Shown: positions 287 through 17,574 of the stretch, one piece after another
Layout of the letters: every line of letters starts with the position of its first letter
How positions within the stretch are numbered: the stretch's first letter is position 1
NCBI GenBank assembly: GCA_022705405.1
Contig: JAKJEN010000009.1
Location: forward strand, 1-40,223
Origin: Planctomycetota bacterium
Lineage (GTDB): Bacteria > Planctomycetota > Phycisphaerae > Sedimentisphaerales > Anaerohalosphaeraceae
Direction: 5' to 3'
DNA length: 40,223 nucleotides
Position numbers and translations under genes: made by a program
Notes under the pieces: generated by a model
Told to the model about the DNA's origin: nothing
Databases searched by the model: none
The model's input: only the letters and a program-made list of their open reading frames with translations

Positions 287-346
287 GTCCTTTCTCTGGT
301 TCCTTGGTTTTTGATCGTTTCGCTAACCATCGACCAAAGAAAGGAC
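287..346. repeat. Inverted repeat upstream of the IS256-type transposase
   Basis: The arms GTCCTTTCTCTGGT (287-300) and ACCAAAGAAAGGAC (333-346) are complementary at 13 of 14 positions, around a 32-base loop. They lie directly before the transposase start, in what should be the subterminal region of the IS256-type element. They could be transposase binding sites or an mRNA hairpin limiting translation. The exact end of the IS256 element is not resolved. Confidence 0.5.
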
Positions 347-356
347 TCTTTTTATC

Positions 357-375
357 TAGAAGTCATCCCAAAACC
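357..375 (+). repeat. Left terminal inverted repeat of the IS5-family element (with TA)
   Basis: This reads TAGAAG, two variable bases, then ATCCCAAAACC. It matches the reverse complement of 1178-1196 at 17 of 19 positions. The stop codon of the transposase second frame (363-365) lies inside it. Confidence 0.8.
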
Positions 376-1141
376 CTCCTTATAAGGATAACGATACAGC
401 CGAGCTGAATCATAGCAAGGAAGTTTTTAAGATGATATTCATAACGAACCACCAAGCGACGGTAGTTTTGGAGCCAGGCAAACAGCCGCTCCACTTTCCA
501 CCGTTTTCTAAATCGCCGCAGGGCACGACCGTCTTGCGTAGCGGGCTTTCTTCGATTGCCTTTATGCGGCGCAATCAGATCGACGCCCCGTTCTTCGGCC
601 AACTGCTGATCCAGCGTATCGCTGTCATACGCTCTGTCGCCAATCACTTTTTCCGGAACATGCTCCAGAAAACACGCATCCAGCGTAGCCTCGACCAGCG
701 TCACTTCATGCGGACGAGCGCTGGTTGCGTTAATGGCGATAGGAAGACCAAAAGCGTCTGTGAGGCCCATAATTTTGGTACCTTTTCCCTTTTTGGTTTC
801 GCCCACTCCATCGCCCCTTTTTTTGCCGGAGCAAACGTTCCGTCGATAAACCCTTCGCTCAGGTCGATGCCGCCACGCTCTTTTAAGTCCTGGGCCAGCG
901 CCGTCAGGATCTTGGTAAAAACCCCCGATTCGGTCCATTCCTGGAAGCGTCGATGGCAGGTACTTTTCGGCGGATATCGCTCCGGCAAGTCTGCCCACTG
1001 GGCGCCCGTTCGTAGAATCCATAGGATGCCGTTGAGGACGGATCGTAAATCCTGTGGCGGCCGCCCTGGCTTTCCAGGTTGTGCTTTGGGCTTCGGAAGG
1101 TATCCGGCAATCCGTTGCCATTGTTCGTTTGTAAGGTCCAT
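363..1141 (-). CDS. IS5-family DDE transposase made by -1 frameshifting (OrfAB)
   Basis: The first frame starts at the ATG at 1139-1141 and encodes the N-terminal DUF4096-type domain and the first catalytic aspartate (D100 in FIDGTF). The second frame carries the rest: GDRAYDSD with the second Asp, and [16 protein letters not shown] with the Glu and the YREK-like basic residues, ending at the stop at 363-365. A run of seven A residues on the coding strand (818-824) lets ribosomes slip -1, after which the reading [17 protein letters not shown] matches the usual family sequence. The fused product is 259 residues, normal for the group. Without slippage the first frame ends after 146 residues. 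A decayed gene is possible, but the ideal slip site and the exact fit of the two frames favour programmed frameshifting. Confidence 0.85.
818..824 (-). promoter_or_regulatory. Slippery heptamer for -1 frameshift in the IS5 transposase
   Basis: On the coding strand the sequence is C AAAAAAA GGGG, in phase A_AAA_AAA in the first frame. Sliding back one base moves the ribosome from the OrfA frame into the OrfB frame. Confidence 0.7.
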
Positions 1142-1177
1142 AACTCATATATCGGCTCTTACTAACCTGATAATTAA

Positions 1178-1196
1178 GGTTTTGGGATAGCTTCTA
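1178..1196 (-). repeat. Right terminal inverted repeat of the IS5-family element (with TA)
   Basis: Read on the minus strand this is TAGAAG, two variable bases, ATCCCAAAACC, the partner of 357-375. The outermost TA is interpreted as the duplicated target dinucleotide. Confidence 0.8.
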
Positions 1197-1218
1197 CTTT
1201 TTAATCTACTTTTTAAAG
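1193..1218 (+). repeat. 12-bp tandem repeat at the IS5 right border
   Basis: TCTACTTTTTAA occurs twice head to tail (1193-1204 and 1205-1216). A related CTTTTTATCTA lies at the left border of the IS (348-358). Joined across the IS, the empty site reads as three near-identical units, so the repeat predates the insertion. Confidence 0.7.
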
Positions 1219-1281
1219 TGCGAAAGATATCTTACGTTCTCTGTCGGATTATGATTAACTCTGTATTTTTGAGAAACTCTC

Positions 1282-1309
1282 TTGACGCATTTGATAAAAA
1301 GGGTATAGT
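1282..1309 (+). promoter_or_regulatory. Sigma-70-type promoter for tRNA-Leu
   Basis: TTGACG at 1282-1287 and TATAGT at 1304-1309 are separated by 16 bases. The tRNA begins 10 bases after the -10 box, so transcription would start a few bases before the mature 5' end. Confidence 0.65.
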
Positions 1310-1319
1310 GGATTTTTTC

Positions 1320-1403
1320 GCGGATGTGGCGGAATTGGCAGACGCGCAGGCTTCAGGTGCCTGTGGGCATTAGCTCATGGAGGTTCGACTCCTCTCATCC
1401 GCA
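1320..1403 (+). tRNA. tRNA-Leu (anticodon CAG)
   Basis: This 84-base gene folds into a type II (long variable arm) cloverleaf. The acceptor stem is GCGGATG (1320-1326) paired with CATCCGC (1396-1402), with discriminator A at 1403. The anticodon stem is CAGGC/GCCTG with loop TTCAGGT, placing anticodon CAG at 1354-1356. The T arm carries GGTTCGACTCC. The sequence closely resembles enterobacterial tRNA-Leu(CAG). The 3' CCA is not encoded and must be added after transcription. Confidence 0.95.
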
Positions 1404-1612
1404 ATAAACCTGCCCTCGACATTAGTTCTATTAGTTGTCTTGCAAAATAGAAAGTGATTTTCAAGCCCAATCTTATATCTTGTCTGCTTCAAATACCATA
1501 AAGAATACAAAATAAGTCGCCTATTCTTTGCGCCCAAAGACTTGCATTGACGTATCAAATCTGATAAGAAAGAGTCATTCGTTAAAAAGACAAATACATT
1601 ACGGAGAAATAT

Positions 1613-2944
1613 ATGATAGGTTGTCATGTAGGTCGGTTTTTTCAGGTGACGGTTGCCGGCGGTTCTTATCAAGAGGGGTTGACCACTGTGATTCAGGGGC
1701 TGCCGCCGGGAATGGTCTTTACAGAACAGGAAATTTATGGCGATTTGCTCTTGCGCAAGCCGGGGTCGGATGAATTGTCCAGTCCGCGCAAAGAGCCGGA
1801 TTTGCCGGTGATCTACTCAGGAGTCAATGCTGCCGATACAATCGAAAATGCCGGAAATCGCAATCATACCAACGGTACTCCCCTGACTATTTTGATTCCC
1901 AACTTGGATCGGCACTTTATTCATATCAAACAATACCAGGATACAAATCGAACCCCTCGGCCCGGTCATGCGTCGTATGCCTCGTTCAAAAAATACGGAC
2001 CGGATGACGATGCAATCGGCGCCGGCATCTTCAGCGGACGATACACCTCGACCATTGTGGCGGCCGGCTATACCGCCAAACAGGTTCTCAAGCGATTTGG
2101 AATTGAAGTATTCTCTTATATTAAGGAAGCCGCCGGCGTATCCTGTCCGGATATGCAGTCCAGCGACATCCTGGAGCATACCGAGCGATATAAAAAAATG
2201 CGGCATGATCTGGATCCGTTTTACCAGGAGGTCTATGTTAAAAAACGAATTACAGAGGATATGCGTTTTCTTGAAAAGATGAAAATTTTGGCCCAGATAG
2301 AAAATCAAATCGATCAGATTCGATCCTTGGCTCCCGTAATGACCGCTCAGGAAGTTGCCGACAAGTATGGCGTTCATCATGTTGTCAATTGTCCTGATTT
2401 TCGGGCGGCCGAGGCGATGCTGGAGGCCTGTAATAAAATTACAAAAACAGGGGATTCTTCCGGCGGGCTGGTCGAGGTGCGCGTGACCGGGGTACCGACA
2501 GGGCTGGGCGAACCGGTTTTCTGTAAATTAGACGCCGAACTGGGGCGAATGCTCGGGATTGGGGCGGTTAAAGGCGTGGAAGTTGGAGCAGGTTTTGCGG
2601 TTAAAAACATGACCGGCTCTCGAAGCAACGATCAGCTGCGCAGCCAAAACGGCCGGGTGATTTTCAATTCCAATAATGCCGGAGGGATTACCGGAGGGCT
2701 GTCAACCGGACAGGATATTATTGTACGGCTTGCCGTAAAGCCCACCTCCACGATCGACATCCAGCAGCAGACTATTGACAAATATACGCTCGAAAACAAG
2801 ACGCTGGCGGCCATTACCCGTCGGGATCCGACCATTGTGGGGCGCATCTGGCCGGTTGCGGAAAATTATACGGCTCTTGTAATTCTTGACCTTTTGATGG
2901 CCTATCTCGGATACGAACAAGTTCGAGCCGCCGTCCGTTCGTAA
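1613..2944 (+). CDS. Chorismate synthase homologue with altered active site
   Basis: The 443-residue product aligns along its length with chorismate synthase (AroC), which converts EPSP to chorismate using reduced FMN. Conserved parts include RKPG (48-51), RKEPD (59-63), RPGHASY (116-122), FSGRYTS (140-146), GVPTGLGEPVF (293-303), GAVKGVEVG (318-326), the NNAGG region (354-358) and RRDP (403-406). The N-terminal signature GESHG is instead GGSYQ, so the usual catalytic His is Tyr19, and the His of NHAGG is Asn355. His119 is kept. About 65 extra residues (180-260, helix-prone and charged) make it longer than the usual 360-390. GGAG at 1603-1606 stands 6 bases before the start. It may be an unusual chorismate synthase or a paralogue with another job; no second aroC lies in the window. 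Confidence 0.75.
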   Translation: MIGCHVGRFFQVTVAGGSYQEGLTTVIQGLPPGMVFTEQEIYGDLLLRKPGSDELSSPRKEPDLPVIYSGVNAADTIENAGNRNHTNGTPLTILIPNLDRHFIHIKQYQDTNRTPRPGHASYASFKKYGPDDDAIGAGIFSGRYTSTIVAAGYTAKQVLKRFGIEVFSYIKEAAGVSCPDMQSSDILEHTERYKKMRHDLDPFYQEVYVKKRITEDMRFLEKMKILAQIENQIDQIRSLAPVMTAQEVADKYGVHHVVNCPDFRAAEAMLEACNKITKTGDSSGGLVEVRVTGVPTGLGEPVFCKLDAELGRMLGIGAVKGVEVGAGFAVKNMTGSRSNDQLRSQNGRVIFNSNNAGGITGGLSTGQDIIVRLAVKPTSTIDIQQQTIDKYTLENKTLAAITRRDPTIVGRIWPVAENYTALVILDLLMAYLGYEQVRAAVRS

Positions 2945-2960
2945 TCGATAAGGAAAAATA

Positions 2961-2997
2961 AAAAAGGGGCAGGATTTTGACCCTGTCCCCTTTTTTT
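2961..2997. terminator. Bidirectional intrinsic terminator between convergent genes
   Basis: AAAAAGGGGCAGG (2961-2973) pairs with CCTGTCCCCTTTTT (from 2982), with one G-U wobble. The hairpin has A-rich and T-rich flanks, so it can stop transcription from either side. It lies between the AroC-like gene and the secretin gene, which end 70 bases apart. Confidence 0.85.
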
Positions 2998-3014
2998 GGA
3001 TTGTAAGTTTTTGA

Positions 3015-6000
3015 CTAAAACGGCCTAAGAGAGGCCACTGCATCTTCCTCAGACTCTTCTTTGAGGACGATGGTCGGCTTGACAAGAATCAGAAGAATGG
3101 ATTTGTCCTTAACCGTGCTTCGGTTGGAAAAAAGCCGTCCCAGAATCGGGATTTTACTAAGTCCTGGAACGCCCGCCTCGATCTCGGATTCAGCGGTCAT
3201 GGTAAGACCTCCAAGAAGTACGGTTCCGCGGTCGGGCACACACACGCGCGTCTCAACAGAAGACGTTTGAATCGACGGGAGATCATAGGTTTCAGATACT
3301 TCAACTGCGCCGCCGTCTGCCGTCGGCATCAGGCCGTATGCTGTATCATGATCTGTTTTAGTCAGCATGTCCATATAGGTGATAATCCGGAGGATCACAT
3401 ATTTTTTGTCTTCCGTAATCGTCGGCATAATATTTAGCATAACGCCGGTATCGATATCTTCGATGGTATGCTCGAAATAAGAAATTGTACGATCAGTTCC
3501 GGCCAACGTTGTAAGCGTCTCTGTAGTAAACGCTGCATCTGTTTTTACTCGCCGTTCCGTGAACACCTCAATATTTGCCGCTTCTGTATTCATCACCATT
3601 ACCTTCGGCGCAGACAGGGATTTTGTGTTTCGATGCATCTGAGTGGCCCGGATGAGAAAGTTCACCTGCAGATCGTCAAGGGCGCTGCCCCAGCTAAAGC
3701 CAAAGTCCATAGCCTCGGTAGAAGTGCCTCCCAGACTGCCGGGTACAACAGTTGATTGAGATTTGGCTAAATTGAAAGAATCCTGATTTATATTCTGGAT
3801 TAGACCTGTGCCGCCTCCAAAGTCTCCTCCGACTTTTATGCGGGTAATGTCCATATCCAACCCGATGTCTTCAAGAAAATTTTCATCTACAAGCAGAAAA
3901 CGGGCTTCGATGGCGACCTGATCTCCCAGCCCTTCCTTGAGTTGTTTTAGAAATTTTTCGACTTCTTTATGAACCTCGGCGGTTTGGTAAACGATCAGTT
4001 TTTGTCCGCCATATTGCCAGACGCGCCCTTCACCGCCTTCTATATACCAGCTCAAAGGCGCTACCGTTTGCTGCATCAGCATAATGATTTCGATAGCCCT
4101 GTACTGACCGCGCCAGTTTCCCATTCCGGTCATACCGCCCATCATGCCCATACCGCCCATCATCCCTCCGCCCATGCCGCCGCCCATACCGCCTCCCATA
4201 CCGCCGCCCATGCCGCCGCCGCGACCGCCTCCGCCCCCGCCGCCGCGGCTGCCGCCTCCGCCTCCACCGCCGCCGCGGCTGCCTCCGCCTCCGCCGCCGC
4301 TGCTGCTGCCGCCCCAACCGCCGCTGTTGTATTCGTCAAAGTCGGCCTGCGGACTGAGCAATTCTGCTACATCATAAACAACCTGATAGTAGCGATTGGA
4401 AACATTGGTATCCAGGTATTCGAGCGTCGCAATAATAATAACTCCTTCTTTAATCATATAACCGATTTCCGTGATCGCACTGGCGTTTACGGCATTAATA
4501 ACCAATTCAAGCGCCGTCTTGAGAGAGATTCCCTGCATGCCGGCGCCGGGAATATTCAATGGAGTTTCCCGTTGAATAAAGGCCGTATCCACCAGATTGG
4601 CCCAGATCGGAGTGATTCGCAAAGGCGGATCTACGGCAGTGCGGATAATTTCCAGAGATTCTTCAAAAGTAGTCTCTTCTGTAATGGCAGACGAAAAATC
4701 AACTGTTTCCTGAAGTTGTTTTTCAACAGCCGTTGTCTTCGGGTCGACATCTTCTTTTTCCGCCGCTTCTCGGCGTGCTGCGATTTCTTTCCAGTTTTTT
4801 GGATAGGTTATTTCGTCAAAATACGGAATCGATTTACGATCTGATTCCAGCAGCAGCCGAATTTCTTCTTTGTCCGTTTCCTCGCGGATTTTTCGCTGTT
4901 CGCGCCACATCACGGTGTCTTCAAGGGTTCGTTTGAGAATCAAAGCGCTGTGGTTTAACGGATCAACCGCCAGCAGCTGCTCCAGCTGTCCAAGGGCTTC
5001 ATCATACCGCTGCTCATCTAAAAACGAATACGCCCTCTGCATAAAGTCTTCGATGGCCTTGGCGCGGCGCTGCTCCATGGCCTGACGATTCTGATCGGCC
5101 AATTGCCGGGCCTGCTGCTCCTGGGCGGATTGCTGCTGGGCGTTAAACGCTTCCTGCTGATGGGCGACCTGTTCTTCTTTTTGGGTTAATTGTCGCTGAA
5201 ATCCTTTGTATAACTCATCCCCCAGAAGCAATTTGTTGGTTTCGATCGTAACAAAGGCCTTTCGTAAAGATTGACGCGCCTGCGTAAAGTCGTTCTGTGC
5301 CAGAAATTGAGCCGCTTTTGCAAGGGCATCATTGACGATGGCTGTTGTATATCCGATCTGAACGGACTGTTTCCGCTGTACTTCATTGAGATAGGAATCT
5401 GTTTGATCGGTTGAAACAGGCGCGCTGACGTGGACAGCGGGAGCCGTTTCGGTCTGTAAGGGCTGGATCTCTGCTGCTTCCGGCGAAGACGGCAAAACTT
5501 CAATGTGGATGGTGGAATCGCTGGGGGTCATTGAGAGGACCGGTTCAGGAACGGGCTGGGGCTGTATAATTGTTTTGTCCGGCTCCGTGGGAACCATTTG
5601 CATCAATTCGATCTCAATTTCTTCTCCGGCGGACAATTGGGGCTCTGCATCAGGAGTTGGTTTGGCGGCCGCTGAAGTTTGCTGAACCTGGTCGATCATT
5701 TTCAGATAATCCATCGGAGTCAGGGAACCGGTCACGCTGACATTCGATTCGGCCACCTGAAGAAAGCCGGCCTTGGCTTTCTCATAGTCGCCGGCCAGAT
5801 AATCTTTAGCGGCCTGATCGTAGATCTGCTGCATTTGATTGTTTTCAACCTGCAGTTTGTCTCGAATTTCATCGATGCTGTTCTGGACCAGGGTGCGCTC
5901 ATTATCCGCAATATACGGATTGACCTTGATTTCTTCCAACAGCGTCAGCGCCTGCTGATACTGACCCTGTGCGGATAACTCTTCCGTCTGTTTGAGGCGG

Positions 6001-6471: not shown

Positions 6472-6500
6472 TTGTTTTTTTTATTTTGCCTCTGTATAGT
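6472..6500 (+). promoter_or_regulatory. Sigma-70-type promoter for tsaB
   Basis: TTGTTT (6472-6477) and TATAGT (6495-6500) are separated by 17 bases. The predicted transcription start lies about 33 bases upstream of the tsaB ATG. Confidence 0.5.
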
Positions 6501-6539
6501 CCCCCCTTGGTCAAATCCTCTAAGAAGAGAGTATGGTAT

Positions 6540-7289
6540 ATGCAAAAGGTTCGTCCGGGTATGGCAGGGCCGTATTCTTTAGCCGTAGATTGTTCAGGGC
6601 GAGTAGGTTCCGTGGCCTTGGGGATGGGTCCGGATCTGATAAAGGAGATTGTTTTTTCGGGCAAAATGAGACATAGCAGCGAGTTGTTTCCGGCTATGTC
6701 CCAGGTCTTAAACTCTTCCGGATGCAAACCTCAGGATATTGAGTTCTTTTGCTTAACAGCGGGGCCGGGCAGTTTTACAGGCCTGAGAATCGCGGTAACT
6801 ACCGCAAAAATGCTGAATTTTGCTCAAGATACGAGTATTGTTGCGGTAAACACAATGGACGCAATAGTCGAAAACGCGACTGAATATATCGAAAAAACAA
6901 AAAATCTTTTTGACAAACTTATAGTAATTCTGGATGCCAAACAGAGCCAATTTTTTACCTCAGTTTACAAAAGGAAAGATCGCAGTTGGCAAAAGTTAGT
7001 TAATGATACGTTGATGTCTTCAGAACTCTTGATTAATTACGCAAAAAAAGATCAACAATTATCTGCTATGCTTGCCGGAGAAGGTCTTTTTTATCATTCC
7101 GAATTTTTTAAGTCTAAAGGTATGGAGTGTTTGCCGTCGGAATACTGGTGCCCCAAAGCATCCAATGTACTAAAAATAGGATACAAGATGGCCCAGGAAG
7201 GCAACTTTTCTGACCCCCAAAAACTGGTTCCTGCTTATATAAGATTGCCTGATGCTGTAGAAAAATGGGGCAATAAAGAAGTTCTATAA
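6540..7289 (+). CDS. tsaB: TsaB, tRNA t6A37 threonylcarbamoyltransferase complex subunit
   Basis: TsaB pairs with TsaD in transferring threonylcarbamoyl to A37 of ANN-decoding tRNAs. It is an ASKHA-fold protein and acts as a non-catalytic partner. The start region SLAVDCSGRVGSVAL, the MRHSSELFPA segment and the signature TAGPGSFTGLRIA are diagnostic. At about 249 residues it is near the family size. The frame is open further upstream from TTG 6486, but ATG 6540 is preferred: it follows the purine-rich AAGAAGAGAG and lies downstream of the promoter at 6472-6500. The other t6A enzyme seen here, a TsaC domain, lies about 9 kb away. The gene stands alone, facing away from the secretin gene. Confidence 0.88.
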   Translation: MQKVRPGMAGPYSLAVDCSGRVGSVALGMGPDLIKEIVFSGKMRHSSELFPAMSQVLNSSGCKPQDIEFFCLTAGPGSFTGLRIAVTTAKMLNFAQDTSIVAVNTMDAIVENATEYIEKTKNLFDKLIVILDAKQSQFFTSVYKRKDRSWQKLVNDTLMSSELLINYAKKDQQLSAMLAGEGLFYHSEFFKSKGMECLPSEYWCPKASNVLKIGYKMAQEGNFSDPQKLVPAYIRLPDAVEKWGNKEVL

Positions 7290-7559: not shown

Positions 7560-9248
7560 ATGGGCGCAAAAAATGTAGCGTTTGAAACAGATGCCCGCAG
7601 CGCATTGCTGGCCGGAGTTGAAAAACTTGCCGTCGCCGTCAGATCCACACTTGGACCGCGCGGAAGAAACGCCATTATTGACAAGGGGTGGGGCGGACCT
7701 ACTGTAACCAAAGACGGAGTCACCGTCGCAGAGGAAATTGATCTGGTCGATAAGGCGGAAAATATGGGAGCCAAATTGGTCCGCGAAGTCGCCAGTAAAA
7801 CCTCGAAAATCGCCGGAGACGGAACCACCACGGCGACCGTTCTGACGGAAGCGATTTTTAAGAGAGCGTATAAAAATCTGGCGGCAGGGGCCGATGCCAT
7901 GGCATTAAACAGGGGCATTCAAAAGGCCGTATCAACTGCCGTGGACAAACTCAAATCGATGGCCAAGCCGATTGATATAAAAAAGAAGGATGACATCATC
8001 AACATCGCCTCTATCAGCGCCAATAACGATCAGGAAATCGGCAAGAAAATGGCTGAGGCCTTCATGCGGGTCGGCAAAGACGGCGTAATTACCGTTGAAG
8101 AAGGAAAGAGTCTGGAGACCACCGTTGATTACGTCGAAGGAATGCAGTTTGATCGCGGGTATCTGTCTCCGCATTTTGTGACCGATCTGGATCATATGAC
8201 CTGCCAGTTGGAAAAGCCCTATATCCTTGTCTTTGAGGAAAAGATCAGCAATGTCGGAAAACTGGTTCCGCTTCTGGAGCAGGTTGCCAAGAGCAAACGG
8301 CCCTTGCTGATTATCGCCGAGGATATTGAAGGAGAGGCCCTGGCCACTCTGGTTGTCAATAAACTTCGGGGTATTCTGCAAGTGGCGGCCGTCAAGGCGC
8401 CCGGCTACGGCGATCGGCGAAAAGCCATGCTGGAGGATATCGCGATTCTGACCGGCGCAGAGCCCATTTTCAAGGATCTGGGGATTGAACTGGATCATGT
8501 GAAGATTTCTCAGCTTGGACAGGCGAGAAAAGTGACCATAGATAATGATACGACCACCATTATTGAAGGAGCTGGGTCGGGGAAAGACATTCAGGGACGG
8601 ATCTCCCAGATTCGAAGCGAAATAAAAGATACCACCAGCGATTATGATCGCGAAAAACTTCAGGAACGTCTGGCCAAACTGACCGGCGGGGTAGCGCAAA
8701 TCAATGTCGGCGCTGGCAGCGAACCGGAAATGAAAGAAAAGAAGGCCCGTATCGAAGACGCCCTGCATGCTACCCGGGCGGCTATTGAAGAAGGTATCGT
8801 GCCCGGCGGCGGCGTGGCCTTTGTGCGGTGTATCGACGAGATCGGCAAATTAAAACTTGAAGGCGACGAAAAGACCGGCGTTGAAATCGTCATGTACGCC
8901 CTCAGGACTCCCTGCTATTACATTGCCGAAAACGCCGGAATGTCAGGAACGCTGGTGGTCAACAAAGTCGCCGCCGGCAAAGGCGGATTTGGCTACAATG
9001 CAGATAAAAACGCCTATGAAGACCTGGTGGAAAGCGGTGTGATTGATCCGGTCAAGGTTTCCCGGATAGCTCTGCAAAATGCGGCCTCTGTAGCTGGCCT
9101 GCTTTTGACTACCGACTGTGTCGTAACGGAAAAGCCGAAAGACAAAGAAAAACCAGGTCTGCCCGGCCATGGCGGTATGGGCGGCGGCATGGGAGGCATG
9201 GGCGGTATGGGAGGCATGGGCGGTATGGATGGCATGGACATGATGTAA
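7560..9248 (+). CDS. groEL1: 60-kDa chaperonin GroEL, paralogue 1 (with GGM tail)
   Basis: This ATP-driven folding chamber subunit forms stacked heptameric rings capped by GroES. The 562-residue protein shows the family blocks [23 protein letters not shown], the nucleotide loop [44 protein letters not shown] and [12 protein letters not shown]. It ends with a GGM-repeat tail (about residues 537-562) typical of housekeeping GroELs. A strong ribosome binding site AGGAGAG precedes the ATG. groES follows after 47 bases and a second groEL after that, so the three are probably one operon. Regulation is not visible: no CIRCE element was found. The complete motifs and tail make it the better candidate for the general chaperonin. 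Confidence 0.97.
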
Positions 9249-9295
9249 ATCGAATAAATCATAACAATAATCTGGATATAACAGGAGAGGATCTT

Positions 9296-9586
9296 ATGAA
9301 ACTCAAACCGTTGGAAGACCGAGTCGTTGTAAAGCCGCAGGAAGCCGAAGAAAAGACCGCCGGGGGCATCGTCCTTCCGGATACGGCCAAAGAAAAACCC
9401 CTGATGGGGAAAGTGATCGCCGTCGGCGAGGGCAAGCGCCTGGAGAACGGAACCCGCGCCAAGATGGCGGTAAAAAAGAACGATGTGGTTCTGTTTGGCA
9501 AATACAGCGGAAGCGAAGTGGAAGTGGACGGCGTGGAATACAAAATCCTCCGCGAAAGCGAACTTCTCGGAATCGTGGAACAATAA
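9296..9586 (+). CDS. groES: 10-kDa co-chaperonin GroES
   Basis: The 96-residue lid of the GroEL chamber starts with [17 protein letters not shown]. Its mobile loop [19 protein letters not shown] contains the GIVLP hydrophobic contact that binds GroEL apical domains. GKVIAVGEG and [15 protein letters not shown] follow, ending [20 protein letters not shown] lies 9 bases before the ATG. It sits between two groEL genes, so one co-chaperonin may serve both. Confidence 0.97.
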
Positions 9587-9633
9587 TGGAACTGAACTCT
9601 TCGAACGCCTGAGCGGGCGGGAGGTATTTGTAT

Positions 9634-11250
9634 ATGGCAAAACAAATGATGTATCAGGAAAACGCGCGGGCCCAGTTAAAGGAAGGGCTTTCTCGTCTGG
9701 CGGCCGCGGTAAAGGTGACCATGGGCCCAACCGGCAGAAATGTGCTGCTGCACAAAAGTTACGGCTCGCCCAAAATCACCAAGGACGGGGTTTCGGTCAG
9801 CAAAGAAATTGAACTGCCGGAGCCGTTTCAAAATATCGGCGCCAAGATGGTCAATCAGGTGGCCAGCAAAACCAGCGATCTGGTCGGCGACGGAACTACA
9901 ACGGCGATGGTTCTGGCGGAGGCAATCTATGCCGAAGGTCTTAAGTATGTTATAGCCGGAACCAATCCGGTATCAATCCAGCGGGGCATCAACAAAGCCG
10001 CCGCCATAGCGATCGACTACATCCGATCCGTCAGCAAGCCGGTCAAGGGACACGAAGACATCGCCAAGGTCGCCGCCATCAGCGCCAACAATTCCCCCGG
10101 CGTCGGCGAAATTCTGGCCGATGCCATGGATAAAGTCGGCAAAGAAGGCGTGATTGAGGTAGAAGAAGGCAAAGGCATGGAAACCGAACTGACGGTAGTG
10201 GAAGGAATGCAGTTCGACAAGGGCTATTTGTCTCCCTATTTTATGACCAATGCCGATACGCTGGAGTGTGTGCTGGAAGACGCCTATATTCTGCTGCACG
10301 AAAAGAAGATCAGCAATCTGCGAGAAATGCTTCCTCTGCTGGAGAAAATCGCCCAGGTGGGCGCTCCTCTGCTGATTGTTTCCGAGGATGTCGAAGGCGA
10401 AGCCCTGGCAGCCCTGGTCATCAACCGGCTGCAGGGAGTGCTGAAGGTTTGTGCGGTTAAGGCCCCGGGATTCGGCGACCGGCGCAAAGCCATGCTGCAG
10501 GATATCGGAATCCTGACCGGAGCGGAGGTGATTACAGAAGATCTGGGCATCAAACTGGAGAAGATTGAATTATCGCAACTGGGCCGCGCCCGCAAGATTG
10601 TGGTTGGCAAAGAAAACACAATCATTATAGAAGGCGAAGGCAAAAAGAAAGACATCCAGTCCCGCTGTGATCAGATTCGCAGTCAGATTGAAAAGACCAC
10701 CAGCGACTATGACCGTGAAAAGCTTCAGGAACGGCTGGCGAAAATGACCGGCGGAGTGGCGGTGATCAAAGCCGGAGCGGCGACCGAAGCGGAAATGAAA
10801 GAACGCAAAGATCTGCTGGACGACGCTCTGCACGCCACCAAGGCGGCCGCGGAAGAAGGCGTCGTGCCCGGCGGCGGAGTCGTGTTCCTGCGGGCCATTG
10901 CGGAAGTGGAAAAAGGCCGAAGCAAAGCCAAGGGCGATGAAAAGTTCGGGTTTGATATCCTGATCAACGCCCTGAAGACCCCCACGCGTCAGATCGTAGA
11001 TAACGGCGGACAGGAAGGCGAGGTGGTCGTTGCCGAATTGATCGAGAAGACGGACAATATCGGTTATGACGCCTTAAAAGGGCAGTATGTGGATATGTTC
11101 AAGGCGGGCATTATCGATCCGGCGAAGGTAGCTCGTACAGCGCTGCAAAACGCCGCCTCAGTGGCGGGATTGATGCTGACGGCCAATATTGTGATTACGG
11201 ACTTAAAAGACGAAGATAAGGAAAACGCCGTACAGGGTGCGGTGATATAA
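9634..11250 (+). CDS. groEL2: 60-kDa chaperonin GroEL, paralogue 2 (no GGM tail)
   Basis: This second chaperonin subunit of about 538 residues is clearly diverged from the first copy. It keeps the ATPase motifs ([63 protein letters not shown]), so it should be active. The C terminus ends [11 protein letters not shown] with no GGM tail, a feature of specialised paralogues. The ATG at 9634 is used, with GGGAGG 9 bases upstream; the frame is open from TTG 9628 but that start lies too close to the ribosome binding site. The gene starts 47 bases after groES and ends in a strong terminator. It may form its own rings, serve a client subset, or mix with GroEL1. Confidence 0.95.
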
Positions 11251-11262
11251 TCGCTCTTTTTT

Positions 11263-11311
11263 CAGCGCTGCATCTCAGGGCCTTGGCGGGCTTGAGGTGC
11301 AGCGCTGTTTT
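11263..11311 (+). terminator. Intrinsic terminator ending the groE operon
   Basis: CAGCGCTGCATCTCAGG pairs with CTTGAGGTGCAGCGCTG (to 11307) in a long, nearly perfect stem followed by TTTTA. dnaJ starts only 23 bases later, so some read-through or a promoter overlapping this region must feed dnaJ. Confidence 0.85.
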
Positions 11312-11333
11312 ATCCAGCAAGGAATAGAGACAG

Positions 11334-12470
11334 ATGGCCAAACGGGATTATTATGAAGTGCTGGGCGTGGATCGAAAGGCCGGCGCAGAGGAGATTAAGC
11401 GCGCCTATCGAAAGATGGCCATCAAGTATCACCCGGATAAAAATCCCGGAAATAAAGAAGCCGAGGCCAAATTCAAAGAATGTGCAGAGGCCTACGAAGT
11501 CCTCAGCGCCCCGGAAAAACGGCAGCGCTACGATCAATTCGGTCACGAGGGCCTGCGGGGCGCCGGGGTCCGCGATTATTCGCACATGAGTGCGCAGGAC
11601 ATCGGGGATATTTTCGGCGATTTATTCGGCGATATGTTCGGCGATCTGTTTGGGCGGCGCGGACGCGGGGGAAGGACTCATGGTCCGCAGCGCGGGTATG
11701 ATCTGGAAACGGCCGTAGAACTGACCCTCGATGAGGTGGCCCAGGGAGCCGAAAAGACGATTGAATTTACCCGACAGGATACCTGTACCGACTGTGACGG
11801 TAAGGGGACAGCCAAGGGAAAAGCGCCTACCCGCTGCAGTACCTGTCGCGGAAGCGGTCAGGTTCAGCGAGCGGGCCTGGGGGGATTTTTCCAAATGGTC
11901 TCTACCTGCCCGCAGTGTCAGGGCAGCGGCCAGGTGATAACAGATCCATGCCGAAAATGCCGAGGCAGCGGAACCATTCCTCACAAACGAACGCTGTCTG
12001 TAAAGATTCCGGCCGGAGTGCATGAGGGACAAGGGGTGCGGGTTACCGGCGAAGGAGAGCCCGGCCGACACGGCGGACCTCGCGGAGACCTGTACTGTTA
12101 TGTGCGGATCAAGGCCCACCCCTTTTTGATGCGAAACGGATCGGATCTGCTGGTGACAGTGCCGCTGAGTTTTACGCAGCTGGCGCTGGGCACAACTATC
12201 GATGTGCCCACGCTGAATGGGACCCGGCAGCTGAAGATCCCGGCCGGAACGCAGCACGCCAGCGTTTTTCGTATCCGCGGACAGGGATTGCCGGATCTGA
12301 GAAGCTCCGGCAAGGGCGATTTGCTGGTTCAGATCGCCGTGGAAATCCCCAAACGGATTACGGCGGATCAGGAGCGGCTGCTGCGCGAATTTGCTCAGAT
12401 CGAGGAAAAACAGACGGATTCTGAGAGCAAAAGCTTTTTTGACAGGATCAAGAAACACTTTGGCGGATAA
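11334..12470 (+). CDS. dnaJ: Chaperone DnaJ (Hsp40, class A)
   Basis: This co-chaperone stimulates DnaK ATP hydrolysis and delivers unfolded clients. The 378-residue protein has the full class A layout: a J domain (DYYEVLGV, with HPD at 33-35), a short G/F-rich linker around residues 95-120, four zinc-finger repeats ([32 protein letters not shown]), then the C-terminal client domains with [15 protein letters not shown]. An AAGGAA ribosome binding site stands about 9 bases before the ATG. grpE follows 12 bases after the stop and fmdB after that, so these three likely form one unit. The partner dnaK is not in the window. Confidence 0.97.
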
Positions 12471-12482
12471 GGGATAGGCGCC

Positions 12483-13109
12483 ATGGCCCATAAAGAAGAA
12501 AAACAGGAAAAGAAAAAAATAGACCAGCTGGAAAAAGAACTGGAGCAGATGCGGGAGCAAATCCGGCTTTTGGAAGAAGAAAAACAAAAGCATTTTGAGC
12601 AGCTCCAGCGGGTCAGCGCCGATTATACCAATTACCAGAAGCGAGCGGCCAGACAAATAGCCGATTCAGTCGCCTATGACAAGAAAGCGATTCTTCGTTC
12701 TCTGCTTCCATCGCTGGATAATTTTGAACATGCCTTTGCCAAAATCAGCTCGGCCGAAGGGGAGCAAACCCTGCAGAAAACCATTGAAGGAATTCATATG
12801 ATTTATAATCATATGCTGGATACGCTCCGATCTCTTGGGGTGGAAAAAGTAGATGCCCTCGGAAAGCCCTTTAACCCCGACCTGCATGAAGCTATGATGA
12901 AAAGAGAGGAAGCGGACAAGGAAAACAATACGGTACTGGAAGTTTATCAACCGGGTTATACTTTGGGCGGACAGGTGCTTCGGCCGGCCAAAGTCATAGT
13001 AAATCGCCTGGATGCAGAAGAGGAGCAAGCCGTTCCCGGAAATGAAGTCGAAACGGAAAAGGAGGACTCCCCTTCGCCGAATTCAGAAGACAGCAGAGAG
13101 GATGCCTGA
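12483..13109 (+). CDS. grpE: Nucleotide exchange factor GrpE
   Basis: GrpE releases ADP from DnaK. The 208-residue protein begins with a charged coiled coil (about residues 1-45, rich in Lys, Glu and Gln), then the family core RVSADYTNYQKRAARQ, LLPSLDNFEHAF and GVEKVDALGKPFNPDLHEAM, and the beta-wing sequence YQPGYTLGGQVLRPAKVIV. An acidic, probably disordered tail follows (175-208). It lies 12 bases after dnaJ and 3 bases before the next gene, which supports co-transcription. Order dnaJ-grpE without dnaK differs from the common grpE-dnaK-dnaJ order. Confidence 0.95.
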   Translation: MAHKEEKQEKKKIDQLEKELEQMREQIRLLEEEKQKHFEQLQRVSADYTNYQKRAARQIADSVAYDKKAILRSLLPSLDNFEHAFAKISSAEGEQTLQKTIEGIHMIYNHMLDTLRSLGVEKVDALGKPFNPDLHEAMMKREEADKENNTVLEVYQPGYTLGGQVLRPAKVIVNRLDAEEEQAVPGNEVETEKEDSPSPNSEDSREDA

Positions 13110-15994: not shown

Positions 15995-17110
15995 ATGCCG
16001 ACAAAAGTGATAAAGATTGATTCCCCGAATCAAACAAAGGATATCAGGGCAGTATCACAAATAATTGAACAGGGGGGGATAGCGGCCATTCCGACCGAGA
16101 CGGTTTATGGGCTGGCTGCCAAAGCAACCCCCGAGGGTATCGAACGTTTGGATTCTTTGAAAAAAAGGCAGGAGGGTAAGCGATATACCCTGCATATTGG
16201 AGACAAAAAGGATCTGGACGCCTACGTGCCCGTGTTAAAAGCGCCTGTGCGAAAACTTATCGACAAGACATGGCCCGGCCCTCTAACGCTCGTTGTAGAT
16301 TTTGAAGAAGATTCCTTAAGTAAGCAGCGAAAAAAACTTGGAAAGGAGATATTCAAGTGCCTGTATTCGGATGGGTCAATCGGTATTCGATGTCCGGATT
16401 TAAGTGTCACCAGGCAAATTTTAAGTTTAGTAAAAACGCCTGTTATTGCTCCCAGCGCCAACCCGGGATCACATCCGCCTGCCGTGACCTTTGAACAGGT
16501 TTTAGGTTATTTTGACAACCAGATCGATGTGGTTGTTATCGGTGGATCGGATTCATGCCGTTATAATAAGAGTTCTACAGTTGTGAAATATGGCACAAAT
16601 GGTTTTCAAATCCTTCGAGATGGTGTTTTCAACGAAAACGATATATTAAAAATATCCACAATTCGGATATTGTTTGTCTGCACAGGGAACACGTGCCGCA
16701 GTCCGATGGCAGAAGGAATTTGCAAAAAGATTCTTGCGGATAAAATTGGGTGCACTATTGACTCTTTGCCGAGGTTTGGATATAGGATTGAATCAGCAGG
16801 CGTTGCTGCAACAGATGGGTCTCCGGCAAGCGAAGAAGCCGAGATCATCTGTCGGCAATTTGGGGTCTCGATAGCAGGACATCGCAGCCGGTTGCTGACT
16901 GCCCAGATGATTAAAGAATTTGATTTTATTTTTGCGATGAGTCGGACTCACTTACAGATTTGTCGGACGCTTTCGGAGTCGCAAGGAAAAGTTAATTTGC
17001 TGGATATCCATGAGGTCTCTGATCCATTTGGCGGAAACCTTGAAATCTATAAAAAATGCGCTGAGCAAATCGAATCTGCACTGAAAGAAAGGATTGAAGA
17101 GTTTTTATGA
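15995..17110 (+). CDS. Fusion: threonylcarbamoyl-AMP synthase (TsaC/YrdC) + YwlE-like protein phosphatase
   Basis: Residues 1-210 form a YrdC/Sua5 domain that makes threonylcarbamoyl-AMP for t6A tRNA modification: GGIAAIPTETVYGLAAKAT, the KKRQEGKRYTLHI lysine/arginine motif, SIGIRCPD and PSAN. Residues 222-371 are a low-molecular-weight phosphatase domain with P-loop VCTGNTCRSPMAEG (nucleophile C229, R235) and the general acid D343-P344. The loop has Thr233 where LMW tyrosine phosphatases have Ile; in Bacillus YwlE that Thr (T11) confers phospho-arginine specificity. The gene overlaps rpiB by four bases (ATGA), the same ywlC-ywlE-ywlF order as in Bacillus but with the first two fused. No clear ribosome binding site precedes ATG 15995. 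Arginine-phosphatase activity is inferred. Confidence 0.88.
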   Translation: MPTKVIKIDSPNQTKDIRAVSQIIEQGGIAAIPTETVYGLAAKATPEGIERLDSLKKRQEGKRYTLHIGDKKDLDAYVPVLKAPVRKLIDKTWPGPLTLVVDFEEDSLSKQRKKLGKEIFKCLYSDGSIGIRCPDLSVTRQILSLVKTPVIAPSANPGSHPPAVTFEQVLGYFDNQIDVVVIGGSDSCRYNKSSTVVKYGTNGFQILRDGVFNENDILKISTIRILFVCTGNTCRSPMAEGICKKILADKIGCTIDSLPRFGYRIESAGVAATDGSPASEEAEIICRQFGVSIAGHRSRLLTAQMIKEFDFIFAMSRTHLQICRTLSESQGKVNLLDIHEVSDPFGGNLEIYKKCAEQIESALKERIEEFL

Positions 17111-17574
17111 AAGTTGTTGTCACCAACGATCATCGAGGAGTTCGAACCAGTGAACAGATTTTGGCGATCCTTGCTCAACTGAACCATGAATGTCTGGATC
17201 TTACTAATAAAGAGGATCAAGCGGTAGATTATCCTGATTCTGCTTATGAAGCTGGAAAGGCCGTTTCAACAGGCAAAGCGGACCGTGCGATTTTGATTTG
17301 CGGTACCGGCATCGGGATGTGCATTGCGGCCAATAAGGTTAAAGGAGTCCGTGCGGCTGTATGCTTTGATGAACTTTCAGCCAAGGTTTCACGACAGCAT
17401 AATGACACTAATGTACTGTGTTTATCCGGAGATCTGCTTGGCCCGTCTTTGTTTCGAAAGATTGTTGAAGTCTGGCTGAGCACAGAGTTTGAGGGCGGAC
17501 GCCATCAGCGGCGGGTTCGCAAAATACAGGCCATAGAAGAGGGCAAAGATCCCCGAGAGGTCGTAAACGGATAA
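17107..17574 (+). CDS. rpiB: RpiB/LacA/LacB-family sugar-phosphate isomerase
   Basis: This 155-residue protein is most likely ribose-5-phosphate isomerase B, interconverting ribose-5-P and ribulose-5-P. Visible motifs are VVVTNDHRGVRTSEQI at the N terminus (phosphate-binding DHR), VDYPDSA, the active-site loop LICGTGIGMCIAANKVKGVRAAVC and the HNDTNVLCLSGDLLGPS segment. The family's catalytic Cys lies in CGTGIG. Its ATG overlaps the stop of the upstream fusion gene (ATGA at 17107-17110), indicating translational coupling. Galactose- or allose-phosphate isomerases share this fold, so sugar specificity is inferred from context. Confidence 0.9.
   Translation: MKVVVTNDHRGVRTSEQILAILAQLNHECLDLTNKEDQAVDYPDSAYEAGKAVSTGKADRAILICGTGIGMCIAANKVKGVRAAVCFDELSAKVSRQHNDTNVLCLSGDLLGPSLFRKIVEVWLSTEFEGGRHQRRVRKIQAIEEGKDPREVVNG

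Follow-up and report, generated by a model that had tools for sequence, protein, structure and literature searches.

A single gene joining a TsaC/YrdC domain to a YwlE-type, most likely arginine-specific, phosphatase in McsB-encoding Planctomycetota

The locus studied here raises the question of what is served by a single protein that joins an enzyme of tRNA modification to a low-molecular-weight (LMW) phosphatase, and whether the phosphatase acts on phosphoarginine (pArg) or phosphotyrosine (pTyr). The window, by which we mean the whole analysed stretch of 40,223 nucleotides, carries at 15995..17110 on the forward strand one open reading frame of 371 aa with no internal stop, supported by Pfam and NCBIfam matches and by an AlphaFold2 model (pLDDT 95, pTM 0.88). 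A TsaC/YrdC domain, the predicted threonylcarbamoyl-AMP (TC-AMP) synthase for t6A (residues 22-210, 16058..16624, forward; PF01300, E 1e-39), is followed directly by a YwlE-type LMW phosphatase domain (residues 225-365, 16667..17089, forward; PF01451 LMWPc, E 9e-27), with no match to the SUA5 domain (PF03481) in the fused protein. Residues 1-222 of the model match the structures of Sua5/TsaC2 (Z 26-28), and residues 222-371 those of LMW phosphatases, including YwlE (Z 23.5). The P-loop, C229TGNT233CRS (16679..16702, forward), has Thr233 at the position that sets specificity under a published rule (PMC8001253), and the general-acid motif D343-P-F-G-G (17021..17035, forward) is, by alignment to YwlE 4pic, identical to that of the YwlE proteins of B. 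subtilis and Geobacillus. The forward-strand gene that follows, rpiB for ribose-5-phosphate isomerase B (17107..17574; PF02502, E 9e-53; TIGR01120 above cut-off), begins inside an ATGA overlap with the stop codon of the fusion. The initial annotation had recognised the one-frame union of TsaC/YrdC and LMW phosphatase, the Thr in CTGNTCRS, the overlap with rpiB and a gene order equal to ywlC-ywlE-ywlF of Bacillus, all of which were borne out; the range of 15995-17574 that it gave to the feature holds the fusion at 15995-17110, the remainder being rpiB.

The N-terminal half in this genome is likely a TC-AMP synthase supporting t6A, because it is the only copy detected outside HypF, where the other TsaC domain sits. 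It scores 133 bits against a cut-off of 123.2 to TIGR00057 (L-threonylcarbamoyladenylate synthase) and keeps 16 of 16 catalytic and motif positions (TET..YG, KxR, SxN). The hypF gene itself is broken by a frame change (297-2437, reverse strand, of L296, contig 257 of genome G000), probably an assembly flaw, since the contig has masked stretches. About 9 kb upstream of the fusion lies a TsaB-like gene for a t6A complex subunit (6486..7289, forward, 267 aa; PF00814, E 9e-24), whose match to the TsaD model is limited to the N-terminal part of that model. Between these two genes, 7560-13109 holds a pair of GroEL-type chaperonin genes with dnaJ and grpE after them; a scan of the window that allowed up to 3 mismatches found no CIRCE element.

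Across the phylum, a fused TsaC half with no second copy beside it probably still acts as an enzyme. In 35 genomes with the fused copy as the only confident non-HypF TsaC, it scored a median of 153 bits to PF01300, against 65 bits in the 29 genomes that have a second TsaC/Sua5 (Mann-Whitney p 4e-11; HypF copies were recognised mostly via frame length). When degeneracy is defined as under 120 bits to PF01300, 27 of the 29 genomes with a second TsaC/Sua5 and 2 of the 35 without it carry a degenerate fused TsaC; independent events are fewer than these counts, since several of the genomes are close relatives, above all in families f29 and f4. The same relation holds in the motifs (14-16 of 16 positions in intact TsaC halves, mostly 3-13 of 16 beside a second TsaC) and between sisters, both in the genus of the window, where G209 is degenerate and the present genome and G157 are intact, and in family f6 (G111 versus G185). 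The second copy in G209 is a HAD hydrolase-Sua5 fusion in which the Sua5 part is complete (L295, 1242-2762, reverse strand, 506 aa). Exceptions occur in both directions: L066 and G233 have a second TsaC yet a fused copy that is fairly intact by score, and G074 and G207 are partly degenerate with no second TsaC found and Ile in the P-loop. The decay is one-sided, since in genomes with a second TsaC the phosphatase half keeps 10-11 of 11 motif positions. Its active site is preserved where the TsaC motifs are lost, which indicates from sequence that selection acts on the phosphatase half independently and that this half does not need an active TsaC.

A dead TsaC half may stay attached through slow decay, for solubility or for docking. 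It is close to an even chance that the fused TsaC domain is simply on its way out, dead copies being slow to decay and having no docking role. In line with such decay, there are TsaC halves that are fully lost or near unrecognisable (L082, L076 and G194) and phosphatase genes that are unfused (L074, L077 and L124). On the other hand, several genera or species of families f29 and f4 still carry the dead TsaC half attached at full length, and that of Neorhodopirellula pilleata (L117) keeps a confidently predicted fold (pLDDT 91, pTM 0.87, from an alignment that includes intact relatives). The TsaC half may thus be a docking module.

A second explanation takes the join as an operon fusion with no functional coupling, in which both activities are real, the phosphatase serves the whole proteome and the join is neutral or equalises dosage; we regard this as a credible possibility, somewhat short of even. 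It draws on the wider history of the block: tsaC, ywlE and rpiB lie side by side in Bacillota. The block has also been joined in other combinations, namely, Sua5-YwlE (L123), Sua5-RpiB (L107) and YwlE-RpiB-serine hydroxymethyltransferase (SHMT; L100), and some relatives carry the YwlE-type gene unfused, with the TsaC half absent and a Thr-type P-loop (L074, L077, L124, G231 and G242). The L100 frame, from Verrucomicrobiales, runs from 2010 to 4283 on the forward strand and encodes 758 aa. What speaks against a neutral join is again the dead TsaC that stays attached in several lineages with another TsaC, in one tested case with a predicted fold; a purely neutral join should have disappeared more often, given enough time since the loss of TsaC activity.

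The fusion is widespread. One full-length, single-frame homologue of about 50% identity comes from a congeneric genome that is 99% complete, the closest relatives with a name belong to Planctomycetota (with the label Phycisphaerae or Sedimentisphaerales on some), and full or near-full-length fused homologues are common among 246 genomes across the phylum. Of 54 fused loci checked, 46 have rpiB downstream in the same orientation and no more than 300 bp away. In the set, Bacillota that possess both the tsaC and the phosphatase gene keep them separate and adjoining, as do three Gemmatimonadota. Outside Planctomycetota, one-frame fusions recur in Omnitrophota contigs and in one contig each labelled Aerophobetes and Gemmatimonadetes (L073), and Candidatus Fermentithermobacillus has a one-frame fusion with a SUA5 domain between TsaC and phosphatase (Sua5-YwlE).

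As to the substrate of the phosphatase half, P-loop position 5 directs the choice between pArg and pTyr in YwlE and PtpB, Thr giving pArg and Ile giving pTyr (PMC8001253). We tallied this position by hand, leaving out two ambiguous f14 copies and arsenate-reductase-like proteins. Among 114 fused copies, it is Thr in 90, Ser in 14, Leu in 5, Ile in 2, Arg in 2 and Met in 1, while 47 stand-alone paralogues of the phylum, drawn from better-scoring matches, have Ile in 41, Leu in 3, Met in 1 and Thr in 2. Thr or Ser is thus found in 104 of 114 fused against 2 of 47 stand-alone proteins, with a Fisher p of 1e-27 that overstates independence because the rows are related. The general-acid motif follows the same division, with DPxG in 44 of 45 fused copies and DPYY in 28 of 35 classic paralogues, and in a tree a 100/98 split sets every fused domain, together with the YwlE domains of Bacillota, apart from 37 classic LMW-PTPs (branching within the YwlE side is not resolved). 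The Thr/Ser P-loop, the grouping with YwlE and DPxG in place of DPYY support pArg specificity of the fused phosphatase, which we infer for the C-terminal domain, and agree with the original designation as YwlE-type, not classic PTP. Fusions in L261, L264, L265, L269 and L063 have CTGN[TS]DR, with the second P-loop Cys changed to Asp.

The alternative, that the C-terminal domain hydrolyses pTyr or another phosphate ester and is found alongside McsB only through shared ancestry, appears improbable. It can appeal to membership of the LMW-PTP superfamily and to the replacement of Thr (by Ser, Leu, Ile, Arg or Met) in 24 of 114 fused copies despite the near-constant presence of McsB; some McsB-positive lineages carry Ile, Leu, Arg or Met at the specificity position, full-length reads of family f59 add two further fused Ile copies beyond the 114, and three Gemmatimonadota with adjacent genes combine Ile with McsB. 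The last of these contradict a strict Thr-McsB rule, which we rejected; within the phylum, the P-loop residue cannot predict McsB, because McsB is nearly universal there. Against it stand the contrast with the largely Ile-type paralogues of the same phylum, the DPxG motif and the grouping with Bacillota YwlE. A sequencing or assembly join, named in advance as a refuter, is ruled out, because many independent genomes, including single-contig ones, carry full-length homologues in a single open frame.

The absence of McsB, together with a preference for pTyr in assay, had been set beforehand as a refuting outcome, and the McsB search does not refute. The genome does encode McsB (G000:C272), with 397.3 bits to the arginine-kinase model NF002194 against a cut-off of 385 and the motif RDSFRA (RDxxRA); this motif was used for the present genome alone, the pattern scan in relatives being unreliable at shortened tails. 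Directly before mcsB and overlapping it is a McsA-like frame with a UVR motif (NF053706, E 3e-44, 151 bits against a cut-off of 210), and a ClpC of 834 aa (G000:C52), which had also been asked for, was assigned by two GTEHILLGL (Clp_N) repeats and a UVR motif. CtsR, the remaining partner sought, gave no match in this genome (89% complete) or in 5 relatives at 99% and was found in two Bacillota. B. subtilis carries ctsR-mcsA-mcsB-clpC; the search's control genome of this species gave no match to PF00217, PF02861 and PF05848, and negative McsB, CtsR and Clp_N calls are to be read with care. Across the phylum, McsB was detected in 233 of 246 genomes; in a non-random genome set, it was found in 23 of 23 genomes with linked or fused LMW genes and in 1 of 7 with TsaC alone. 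The phosphatase is not obligatory for McsB, as several high-completeness f47 genomes are McsB positive without a detected LMWPc; LMWPc was likewise not detected in several near-complete McsB-positive genomes of families f37 and f75. In the genome of the window, the fused domain is the sole LMWPc match by profile search. A Glu just before FGYLTACPTN of McsB (L324-L346 and L032-L051) is constant in readable Thr-type genomes and replaced in most genomes with a non-Thr/Ser phosphatase; since these are few and related, we make no claim of co-variation with the P-loop.

Taken together, the gene likely encodes a bifunctional housekeeping protein, in which the only dedicated TC-AMP synthase detected in this genome is joined to a YwlE-type phosphatase with pArg as its most likely substrate. 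The N-terminal half would perform the first step of t6A tRNA modification, and the C-terminal half would most likely dephosphorylate arginines marked by the cell's own McsB, rescuing proteins from ClpC; the gene would have arisen from an old tsaC-ywlE-rpiB block, in which the neighbours tsaC and ywlE became one. More speculatively, contact of TsaC with the TsaD complex could bring the phosphatase to TsaD and shield it from McsB and ClpC. The broader proposal, in which the TsaC half serves additionally, and in many Planctomycetota by now solely, as a noncatalytic docking module that steers the arginine phosphatase (e.g., to the TsaD complex), hard-wiring protein-arginine phosphorylation and t6A synthesis in a Gram-negative phylum where McsB operates in the absence of CtsR, is put forward tentatively and with more doubt than belief. 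The initial interpretation is, as a whole, partly supported: the physical link between tRNA modification and phosphatase is real, while coupling of the two activities is only one reading and, as the TsaC half is degenerate in many relatives, is not the conserved feature there.

The TsaD connection takes its cue from B. subtilis, in which TsaD is Arg phosphorylated at R282 and ywlE, mcsB, clpC and R282K alter its stability (PMC7546277). The TsaD of the present genome has the Arg of GGVAANxxLR, which probably corresponds to R282, although as a widespread motif it is weak evidence for TsaD as a target. R282 was located through the homologue of another member of the Bacillaceae, Robertmurraya, in which the residue is Arg280, with what we take to be a two-residue N-terminal offset. 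By analogy, a TsaC-tethered arginine phosphatase may guard the t6A machinery, and, since the B. subtilis kinase/phosphatase pair acts on TsaD, the next enzyme of the pathway, the fusion makes it possible to test how protein quality control might be specifically connected with translation fidelity.

Each part of the fusion belongs to a known family; what is new is that TsaC and YwlE are combined, that this combination extends through the phylum alongside McsB, and that its decay is one-sided. A literature search, with most subscription journals outside its scope, found no description of the fusion and no pArg proteomics of this phylum, and the papers it covered discuss arginine phosphorylation by McsB chiefly for Gram-positive bacteria. 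McsB is present in almost the entire Gram-negative phylum studied here, and in most of the genomes sampled its likely eraser is joined to the essential enzyme that opens the pathway of a universal tRNA modification. The repeated decay of the TsaC half alone is a natural experiment on the purpose of the fusion.

In comparison with known systems, the phosphatase half resembles B. subtilis YwlE and S. aureus PtpB in the Thr at P-loop position 5, the DPFG motif, about 34-35% identity over the domain, a genome that also encodes McsB and ClpC, and the adjoining rpiB; it differs in its covalent join to TsaC, in that no CtsR was found, in its planctomycetotal host and in being known from sequence. The N-terminal half shares with TsaC/YrdC and Sua5 (TsaC2) the TsaC fold of residues 1-222 (Z 26-28 to Sua5 and T. 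maritima TsaC2), the full set of motif positions and the standing of the only dedicated copy detected in the genome, whereas a phosphatase domain takes the place of the SUA5 domain of Sua5. The fusions in L107, L100 and L123 likewise join neighbouring tsaC, ywlE, rpiB and glyA in one frame, in other combinations and other phyla, and beside them can be listed PDB 4egs, an LMW-PTP named RpiB. In the McsB/YwlE control of TsaD in B. subtilis (PMC7546277), phosphatase and TsaC are separate proteins, and in the present organism TsaD is a candidate target; the two systems have in common the same kinase, phosphatase, unfoldase and t6A components and a probable target Arg motif in TsaD.
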